From Pannonibacter phragmitetus DSM 14782 (GTDB lineage Bacteria > Pseudomonadota > Alphaproteobacteria > Rhizobiales > Stappiaceae): a stretch of 64,000 nt of DNA. Of this stretch, positions 43,987-45,573 are shown in pieces (the first letter of the stretch is position 1; every line of letters starts with the position of its first letter). The stretch spans positions 248,001 through 312,000 of the forward strand of contig NZ_KB908215.1 in NCBI RefSeq assembly GCF_000382365.1, given 5' to 3'. Position numbers and translations under genes: made by a program. Under the pieces are notes generated by a model, which worked only from the letters and a program-made list of their open reading frames with translations, had not been told where the DNA came from and did no database searches.

Positions 43987-44568
43987 TTAGAGCCCGCGCC
44001 GTCCCCGTCCGACGGCGCGGGCCACCATTGCCGAGACCTGCGCTTCCGACCTGCGAAAACTGGGCGCATCCGGCGTGGTCACGTTGACGACCACGGTTCC
44101 CCCGACACTACCACCCGGCCCCGCCACACCCAGCCGCCCATCGGCACCGCGCTGCAGGGGTAGAATGGCTTCCGCTCCCGCCTCCCCCATCAGCCCCAAC
44201 CCGCTGCCATGGCCGAAGAAGGTCGGCGACGACACCACGCCGCCATCCGCAAACAGCGACACGCCGGAGCTGAACAGCCCGGACACACCGCTTGCAACGC
44301 TTGAGGCTGCCGAACCCAGCAGGCTGCTCACCGCATTTCCCGCCAGGTTTGTCAGCGGCGCCAGCGCGCTGGAAAGCGTCCGCGAAGACAGGCTCAGCAC
44401 CATCGATTTCATCACGCTGTCCAGCGATTTGCCACTGACCACCGCCGTTCGAAGCCCGGCATTCAGCACGCGGGAGAAGTCGCCCGCCGTCTTCTGCATG
44501 TCCTGCATCTGCTGCGCCATGCGGTCGAGGTCCGCGCCCCCCGCGCCAATCAGGCTGTCATCTGCCAT
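43987..44568 (-). CDS. short tail tape-measure protein (RcGTA g11)
   Basis: 193 residues: helical N-terminus (LDRMAQQMQDMQKTAG), an Ala/Ser/Gly-rich middle and the tape-measure signature GLMGEAGAEAILPLQRG (about 126-142). Such short tape measures are normal in GTAs, reflecting a short tail, so this is not a truncation. ATG overlaps the g10.1 gene by 19 bp. Confidence 0.9.
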   Translation of the reverse strand: MADDSLIGAGGADLDRMAQQMQDMQKTAGDFSRVLNAGLRTAVVSGKSLDSVMKSMVLSLSSRTLSSALAPLTNLAGNAVSSLLGSAASSVASGVSGLFSSGVSLFADGGVVSSPTFFGHGSGLGLMGEAGAEAILPLQRGADGRLGVAGPGGSVGGTVVVNVTTPDAPSFRRSEAQVSAMVARAVGRGRRGL

Positions 44569-44798
44569 CCCGTTTCTCCTTCATCCGGAAAACGCTGCAT
44601 CAGCGCCTCCAGCCCCCGGCGGTTGAGAGCGCCCGCTCCCCGCCGGAGGCCCAGCGCGAAGGCCAGTTCACGCGGCGTCGCGGCCCAGGTTCCAGCCGGG
44701 CTCCAGCCGAGGCGCCCCATGGCGGCATGAAGCACCGCCTCCCATGGAAACGCCCCGGCCCCGCCCGCCGCAGCCCTATCCCCCACGCCGCCTCTCAA
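44550..44798 (-). CDS. tail assembly chaperone, second part (RcGTA g10.1, TIGR02216-like)
   Basis: Up to 82 residues. The conserved region starts at FPWEAVLHAAMGRLGWSP and ends LNRRGLEALMQRFPD, matching the ~60-residue family. Start is unclear: TTG 44798 overlaps the g10 stop but has no ribosome site; GTG 44786 has GAGAGG four bases upstream; or the ORF is entered by a -1 frameshift from g10 at GGGCCCC (44813-44807). By analogy with lambda G/GT, this would make a fused chaperone for the tape measure. Confidence 0.85.
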   Translation of the reverse strand: MRGGVGDRAAAGGAGAFPWEAVLHAAMGRLGWSPAGTWAATPRELAFALGLRRGAGALNRRGLEALMQRFPDEGETGWQMTA

Positions 44799-45145
44799 GG
44801 GCGCGTGGGGCCCATGGCTGCCTCCGCTGTCTCATCAGCTGCACCAAAGGTGATCCGCAGCAGATCCGCCGCAATCGCCGCGAAACCGGCCACGCCGCCG
44901 GGCGCCCGCATCATCGCCACCTGCTCGTCGGAAACGCTGTTGCCCGCCCCGCGCAGCCCCGCACCAAGGACGCGGATGATGTCCCGCGCCGCCAGCCGCC
45001 CGCTGGCAAAGCGCTCCACCAGCCCCTGCAGATCCTCGCAGGCAAAGGCGCTCTCCAGTTCCGCCAGCGCGCCAAGCGTCAGCACCAGCGTCCATTCCCG
45101 CCCGTCCAGCATGGCGCTGATTTCGCCTCTCAGCCGGTTCGTCAT
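44795..45145 (-). CDS. tail assembly chaperone (RcGTA g10, GTA TAC family)
   Basis: 116 residues from ATG 45145 (MTNRLRGEISAMLDGREWTL), the usual family N-terminus; the open frame begins six codons earlier at a TTG overlapping the g9 stop. The conserved GALAELESAFACEDLQGLVERF is present. Positioned between tail tube and tape measure like lambda gpG. The final codons ATG GGC CCC hold a perfect X_XXY_YYZ heptamer, three codons before the stop, in register for a -1 shift into g10.1. Confidence 0.88.
   Translation of the reverse strand: MTNRLRGEISAMLDGREWTLVLTLGALAELESAFACEDLQGLVERFASGRLAARDIIRVLGAGLRGAGNSVSDEQVAMMRAPGGVAGFAAIAADLLRITFGAADETAEAAMGPTRP
44807..44813 (-). promoter_or_regulatory. 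candidate -1 ribosomal frameshift site GGGCCCC
   Basis: In the zero frame of g10 the heptamer reads G_GGC_CCC; slipping back one base continues CAC GCG CCC TTG AGA, exactly the g10.1 frame. A stem of eight pairs with one bulge (44807-44800 with 44792-44784) follows at once; the spacing is shorter than the 5-9 bases usual for stimulators. Not proven. Confidence 0.5.
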
Positions 45146-45159
45146 CCCTGCCGCTCCCC

Positions 45160-45573
45160 TCAAAGCGCCGTGAAGGCCAGTTCGCCGGCGGACTCGAGAG
45201 CGATCTCATAGGTCACCTCCCCGTCATGCTGCCCCGCATATTCCAGCGCCGTGATCTGGAACGGCCCCTGAAGCGTGCCGAAATCCGGGATCACCACCTG
45301 AAAGGCCCTGATCTCGCCACTGAAAAACAGCGCCCGCGCTGTCTCGTCCGCACTGGCATCACGGAAAAGGCCGGAGCCCGAGATGCTGGCACTGCGGGTG
45401 CCAGCCCCGGCCAGCAATTCCCGCCAGCGCCCGGCACTGTCCGCATTGGTGATGTCCACCGTTGCTGCATTGAGCGCGATCCTGCGGGCCCGAAGCCCCG
45501 CCAGTGTCACAAAGGAATTGCCGCTGCCCGTGCCGAGCTTCAGCAAAAGGTCACGTCCACGCTGCGCCGCCAT
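45160..45573 (-). CDS. major tail tube protein (RcGTA g9)
   Basis: 137 residues starting AAQRGRDLLLKLGTGSG, characteristic of the phage TP901-1-type major tail family, with DITNADSAGRWRELLAGAG and the beta-sandwich C-terminus FQITALEYAGQHDGEVTYE. Forms the stacked rings of the tail tube. ATG has AAGGAG six bases upstream. Confidence 0.94.
   Translation of the reverse strand: MAAQRGRDLLLKLGTGSGNSFVTLAGLRARRIALNAATVDITNADSAGRWRELLAGAGTRSASISGSGLFRDASADETARALFFSGEIRAFQVVIPDFGTLQGPFQITALEYAGQHDGEVTYEIALESAGELAFTAL

Follow-up and report, generated by a model that had tools for sequence, protein, structure and literature searches.

The GTA genes g10 and g10.1 in the window, by which we mean the whole stretch of 64,000 nucleotides that was analyzed, probably form a pair of the lambda G/GT type that is joined by a −1 ribosomal frameshift, most likely at the sequence C_CCT_TGA at the end of g10. 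Sequence comparison strongly supports −1 frameshifting at the g10/g10.1 junction as a feature that is widespread in the order and also seen in other orders. The comparison established that the two genes stand in a −1 frame relation, that slip sites are enriched in register at the end of g10, and that g10.1 lacks a start of its own in many relatives. An earlier note on this DNA had proposed that a −1 frameshift at the heptamer G_GGC_CCC fuses the two genes; the frameshift is strongly supported order-wide and is the best reading here, but the heptamer did not hold up as its site.

The gene pair and its junction in the window

The GTA cluster lies on the minus strand of the window from Pannonibacter phragmitetus DSM 14782 and contains, in this order, the tail tube gene, g10, g10.1 and the tape measure gene (all coordinates below are on this strand). 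The major tail tube protein g9 (45160..45573) matched PF06199 and TIGR02126. The g10 gene (44795..45145), which starts with ATG at 45145 and stops with TGA at 44797-44795, encodes the 116-residue, G-like tail assembly chaperone 1, and it matched PF11836 (Phage_TAC_11, GTA-gp10) with an E-value of 1.4e-30. The open frame of g10.1 (44550..44831), which is −1 relative to g10 and would encode a T-like chaperone, matched PF09550 (Phage_TAC_6), and also TIGR02216 with 49 bits, under the cutoff of 56.1. The g11 tape measure protein (43987..44568, 193 aa), whose start overlaps the end of g10.1, matched NF058675 with 148 bits, under the cutoff of 220. Homologues of g9, g10, g10.1 and g11 are all present in the RcGTA order, with the NF058675 and TIGR02216 matches below their cutoffs. 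The flanking PF06199 and NF058675 matches place the pair between the major tail tube protein and the tape measure, as the earlier note had stated and as is the case for lambda G/GT pairs. The g10.1 domain (44553-44750) also matched the phage family phrog_7493 (178 residues) at residues 105-132 (E 2e-4), which looks as though this domain formed part of the latter half of a single longer protein in some phages; g10 did not match the first half of phrog_7493.

The 3′ end of g10 reads ATG GGC CCC ACG CGC CCT TGA. From 44831, right after a TGA, the −1 frame stays open to 44550, across the g10 stop and through g10.1, and the conserved domain of g10.1 begins at FPW (44750). Two candidate slip sites are found at this junction. 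The heptamer G_GGC_CCC (44807..44813) shares the g10 frame and precedes the stop by three codons, and a −1 slip on it enters the g10.1 frame, all of which had been read correctly before. The proposed slip site C_CCT (44798..44801) directly precedes the TGA, and a −1 move on it turns CGC CCT TGA into CCC TTG. Because it leads into the wrong frame, a +1 shift at CCT_TGA was discarded. There is no ATG in the −1 frame upstream of the g10.1 domain in the window; the only starts are, as noted earlier, a TTG (44796..44798), which overlaps the g10 stop in TTGA and lacks a ribosome site, and a GTG (44784..44786) with GAGG 4 nt upstream.

The g10/g10.1 junctions of relatives

Of the order's 397 genomes, 239 contained a g10 match in a protein search, as did 59 of the family's 87. 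We compared 172 loci including that of the window, which were the best-scoring 130 of the order's 239 matches and 42 more from the family. The g10.1 gene was found downstream of g10 in 171 of the 172 loci, and its frame relative to g10 was −1 in 156, +1 in 14 and 0 in one. In this sole 0-frame locus, L052, the beginning of g10.1 shares the frame of g10, and g10.1 is then cut by a stop; its reading as an in-frame fusion was rejected because g10.1 ends early, and it looks like a decayed exception, due to decay or a sequencing error. Thinning at 80% g10 identity left 104 loci, 92 of them in the −1 frame.

Slip-site patterns were counted over the last 45 nt of g10 in the three registers and compared with the body of g10. 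The data showed that, in the thinned −1 loci, X_XXY_YYZ heptamers occupied 71 of 1380 positions in the reading register, in 55 of the 92 loci, versus 7 of 5520 in the g10 body; at the g10 end, the two remaining registers gave 2 and 6 of 1380. The chief heptamers were A_AAC_CCT (18), C_CCT_TTC (16), T_TTC_CCT (13, mostly beside C_CCT_TTC), G_GGA_AAG (4) and C_CCT_TTT (3). The sequence C_CCT_TTC_CCT_GGG is partly dictated by the coding of PFPW of g10.1 where the genes overlap, and the count was therefore repeated without overlapping loci. In the 63 of 92 loci where the g10.1 domain begins after the g10 stop, heptamers were still found at 34 of 945 positions versus 3 of 3780 in the body, with 1 and 4 of 945 in the other registers. 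As control ends, the 3′ ends of g10.1 contained 3 heptamers in 1560 positions, and the +1-frame loci 2 in 180. Proline codons at the g10 end of the thinned loci were CCT in 91 of 240 cases, 77 of which were preceded by C, versus 10 of 103 in the g10 body, with C before 4 of the 10; in the 63-locus subset 37 of 138 were CCT, 31 of them after C. In genus g5 (L124, L153, L164 and L165) g10 ends with NNC_CCG before the stop instead of CCT, which is a further possible single-proline slip context.

The presence of slip sites was then set against that of start codons, a start being defined as an ATG, or a GTG or TTG with a Shine-Dalgarno match, no more than 75 nt from the g10.1 domain. Among the 156 loci in the −1 frame, those with a slip site had no ATG, GTG or TTG near the domain in 68 cases, a weak GTG or TTG in 28 and a start in 13, and those without a slip site had a start in 29, a weak one in 11 and neither in 7. 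After thinning, no start was present in 45 of 65 loci with a slip site versus 7 of 27 without (Fisher p 0.0002). Slip sites combined with at best a weak start were found in 21 of 34 families, with different heptamers (A_AAC_CCT, C_CCT_TTN, G_GGA_AAG) at one place. The fusion would not be universal, since a start accompanies the slip site in 13 of the −1 loci and stands alone in 40 (11 of them weak), and 7 have neither. These 7 include four loci of genus g5, three of which (L124, L164, L165) end g10 with C_CCG before the stop.

From other orders, 27 loci with a PF11836 match were compared (30 minus 3 of the window's order); 23 had both genes, and 18 had them in the −1 frame. An in-frame heptamer was present in 10 of the 18, which was G_GGA_AAG in L175, L193 and L198, C_CCT_TTC in L176, L180, L182, L184 and L185, A_AAC_CCT in L191 and C_CCT_TTA in L192; the g10.1 match was weak (<30 bits) in 4 of the 18 (L189, L191, L192, L193). 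A tree of 105 loci, 89 of them labelled, had weak support, with 11 of its 102 inner branches starred, and does not give the direction of change; it requires at least 19 changes between frameshift and own start, and no fewer than 6 changes of the start label follow from the starred branches. Single genera, such as g3 and g4, can also contain several slip sequences. A broader reading, which we offer tentatively and would rate at a little under even chances, is that the GTAs of Alphaproteobacteria keep the −1 frameshift while the slip site, be it A_AAC_CCT, C_CCT_TTN, G_GGA_AAG or a bare proline C_CCN before the stop, has been repeatedly replaced, and has recurrently given way to a start of g10.1 itself. 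The bare C_CCN-stop would then be a class of −1 site outside the heptamer rule, at which a single proline tRNA would move from CCU to CCC with the stop waiting in the A site.

Slippage or separate initiation in Pannonibacter

The junction was compared among five Pannonibacter species (L001, L002, L031-L033; L203, L205 and L206 are named records of the genus), with P. indicus as the nearest named record. The earlier note had suggested that the heptamer be followed across junctions; among the five species G_GGC_CCC is in frame only in that of the window, P. indicus, whose g10 is 94% identical, has GGG GCC CCC at this position, and the remaining three have no heptamer. What is kept in all five, while the flanks vary, is C_CCT_TGA, ending at the g10 stop. 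As measured by the conserved slip sequence expected in the overlap of lambda-type pairs, G_GGC_CCC thus stands at one of five and C_CCT at five of five, and several heptamers are enriched order-wide. In all Pannonibacter loci compared, four of which were aligned, CCCTTGAG is invariant across an otherwise variable junction. The earlier note had counted a conserved ribosome site before GTG 44786, together with loss of the heptamer, against frameshifting; this GTG is found in one of the five species, being GCG in P. indicus and absent from the other three. Because the heptamer and the GTG are each confined to one species and CCCTTGAG does not vary, C_CCT_TGA is most likely the best slip-site candidate in Pannonibacter.

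A two-tRNA slip with G_GGC_CCC as the main site is a doubtful alternative. The heptamer follows the pattern perfectly, in frame and close to the stop, and the similar G_GGC_CCT occurs in two other loci, but its restriction to one species speaks against it. Heptamers of the X_XXY_YYZ type occur at 0.13% of codon positions in the g10 body, which gives a chance of about 2% over 15 positions, so that G_GGC_CCC alone is unusual but not proof. The sequence GGGCCCC occurs 5 times on both strands of the window versus 27.7 expected from dinucleotide shuffles, a deficit that suggests avoidance of the GGGCCC palindrome. The 8-pair stem CCCCACGC/GCGTGGGG, which had been placed behind the heptamer, does exist, but its 5′ arm begins inside the heptamer and its loop holds CCCTTGA; because of this overlap it cannot act downstream of G_GGC_CCC. 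The heptamer may nevertheless add to slippage in the species of the window. In L053 and L074, G_GGC_CCT is followed by 119-nt linkers between the g10 stop and the domain, which are open in the g10.1 frame and consist in part of repeated CGCAAAGCGGCCCG-like units.

Separate production of g10.1 by coupled re-initiation after g10 termination, at TTG 44798 or GTG 44786, is the foremost rival, mainly with the TTG, and we consider it unlikely, if somewhat less so than a main site at G_GGC_CCC. The TTG is present in all five Pannonibacter species, but it is kept because CCT TGA contains it, and a Shine-Dalgarno match 4-11 nt before it is absent in all five; in this genus conservation alone does not separate the TTG start from the slip, as the same TGA makes the TTG inevitable. 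The GTG has its GAGG in the window, and in other lineages g10.1 clearly relies on a start of its own, as in the +1-frame loci, where 11 of 14 have an ATG near the domain, but the GTG is missing from the other four Pannonibacter species. Where CCT adjoins the stop, this stop is TGA in 17 of 18 −1 loci, versus 111 of 156 overall, and it always creates a TTG, which fits re-initiation. Against it are the relatives in which the two can be told apart: C_CCT is present in 95 of the −1 loci, the stop reads TTGA in 26, and among the 69 with another stop context 54 lack any ATG, GTG or TTG close to the domain and yet keep the slip site, which argues for a slip in these relatives, and by analogy only in Pannonibacter. 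Least probable is a start of g10.1 at an ATG within its domain, with no fusion made. Two phage-labelled GenBank records are so annotated, and 77 of 96 frameshift-labelled loci have an ATG in the first 20 domain codons, but only 7 of these 77 have a Shine-Dalgarno match, and 88 of the 96 frameshift-labelled loci, like 68 of 75 others, conserve the PW of FPW, which lies upstream of this start.

Lambda-type pairs have a stimulatory structure downstream of the slip site in some members but not in all. A slip at C_CCT could be helped by a weak candidate stem that begins 6 nt after it, with the 5′ arm GCGGCGTGGGG (44781..44791) and the 3′ arm CTTCATGCCGC (44722..44732) inside g10.1. It has 11 pairs counting G-U, or 8 within 45 nt, and its counterpart in P. 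indicus has 6 and 5; the fold z-score in the window is only −0.99 in dinucleotide shuffles, which is not significant, so the stem as a stimulator is only a suggestion. Counts of positioned stems were preferred over fold z-scores in this GC-rich DNA. Helices 4-10 nt after A_AAC_CCT or A_AAC_CCG had a mean of 7.5 pairs in 17 thinned loci, versus 5.5 after shuffling, and none of 200 shuffles reached this value. Those after C_CCT alone had 6.3 versus 5.9 (33 thinned loci, 10 of 200 as high; for all 53 loci 0 of 200), and for C_CCT_TTN and G_GGA_AAN 12 and 28 of 200 shuffles were as high; stems in these three contexts, with C_CCT alone taken after thinning, are at best marginal. Fold z-scores were lower after A_AAC_CCT (mean −1.10; p 1e-5 versus the g10 body and 0.009 versus loci without a slip site), and were not lower after C_CCT or C_CCT_TTN in dinucleotide shuffles. 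In genus g3, five loci that are close relatives and have GAC CCT TGA showed helices of 11-12 pairs with spacers of 4-6 nt. Column-wise covariation in the group with GAC CCT TCT TGA was dropped, as the 5′ arm changes register between loci.

Proposed products and relation to known systems

In the proposed mechanism most ribosomes would end at the g10 TGA and release the 116-residue G-like chaperone, and a minority would slip one base back and make a G-T-like fusion of 198 residues and 20.6 kDa, below the roughly 22 kDa predicted earlier. The genome contains proline tRNAs with the anticodons UGG, CGG and GGG, among 46 tRNA matches. The tRNA with anticodon GGG would read CCU through a G-U wobble and, with the TGA slow to be read, could re-pair with CCC one base back, where full pairing would favor the −1 move. 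A point against this site is that C_CCT by itself differs from the classical two-tRNA type. It resembles Bacillus subtilis cdd, where ribosomes shift by −1 on one AAG codon near the stop, in being a single-tRNA −1 slip close to a stop, and differs from it in the codon, which is for lysine in cdd, and in the unrelated gene. With trypsin, which does not cut at R-P, the predicted junction peptide is ITFGAADETAEAAMGPTRPLR for a slip at C_CCT and ITFGAADETAEAAMGPHAPLR for a slip at G_GGC_CCC, and the corresponding peptide of unshifted g10 is ITFGAADETAEAAMGPTRP.

We infer that the fusion is made, in a certain ratio to g10, and that its action is like that of lambda GT, and g10 and g10.1 would likewise have a chaperone role in GTAs. 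Within the fusion, holding the tape measure would be the task of the g10 part, and recruiting tail tube protein that of the g10.1 part. The best AlphaFold model of g10, obtained from only six sequences, had a mean pLDDT of 80, and the other four models had 37-57. Among the BFVD matches listed for this model, several were annotated as tail assembly chaperone (TM 0.5-0.6, E 0.02-0.2), others as tail tube proteins, a name also borne by PF11836, and the best E-value, 1e-3, was to an unnamed protein. No PDB entry matched g10 by fold, and none was a credible relative by sequence. Together with the gene order and the Pfam families, the matches of the predicted model fit the lambda G/GT system.

The lambda G/GT heptamer is G_GGA_AAG, and this sequence is itself present in several GTA lineages. 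Unlike in lambda, the genes are chromosomal and not those of a phage, the slip sequence varies between and within genera, Pannonibacter keeps only the single-codon C_CCT before the stop, and some GTA lineages use an own start. The likeness is in the arrangement, as the tail assembly chaperone frameshift model reviewed for lambda involves two overlapping genes between the major tail protein and the tape measure, in −1 relation and with a slip site towards the 3′ end of the first (PMC5009743). In phages of Alphaproteobacteria, −1 shifts of tail chaperones have been described at AAAAAAC in the phiCbK group and at GGGAAAC in Colossus (PMC3556154), and tail chaperone frameshifts have been noted in R. 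capsulatus phages (PMC8601537, PMC4882933). These are at the same gene position as in the GTA pair, and GGGAAAC is also among the GTA slip sequences of the loci surveyed; however, they are phage cases, and the parts of these three papers that were covered describe no GTA chaperone frameshift. A tail chaperone frameshift in Pseudomonas phages is shown in PMC12846349, which mentions GTAs in another connection in the part covered, and gpG/gpGT are named in PMC10299305, where a +1 shift was proposed in the hydrolase of a Wolbachia element.

In RcGTA the first chaperone gene is likewise a pfam11836 member in the same place, and the second is called g10.1 (PMC9765227) or g10.5 (PMC11409702); as far as covered, both papers treat the two chaperones as separate genes, unlike the fusion proposed here, and the word "frameshift" is absent from the main texts of PMC11409702, PMC9765227 and PMC7296036. 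A report of a tail chaperone frameshift in GTAs, of which the earlier note knew none, was not found by title or opening abstract in the literature searched, with subscription papers mostly outside its scope, which does not prove absence. The junction is thus probably a known kind of phage recoding in a new setting, much wider than the earlier note suggested, with the heptamer named there not being the conserved site.

The frameshift can explain why public annotation, in two records, starts the second chaperone inside its domain. L253 and L254 (MW091529, MW462191), both phage-labelled, have A_AAC_CCT_TGA at the g10 end, and the annotated start of their g10.1 is an ATG within the domain, so that the conserved FPW is lost. 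The C_CCT junction makes a single-tRNA proline slip directly testable. The GTAs, phage tails that the cell has domesticated and maintains, would have retained the translational control of their tail chaperones, and the lineages with a frameshift versus those with a plain start would provide a natural experiment on the need for the G-T fusion and its ratio in tail assembly.
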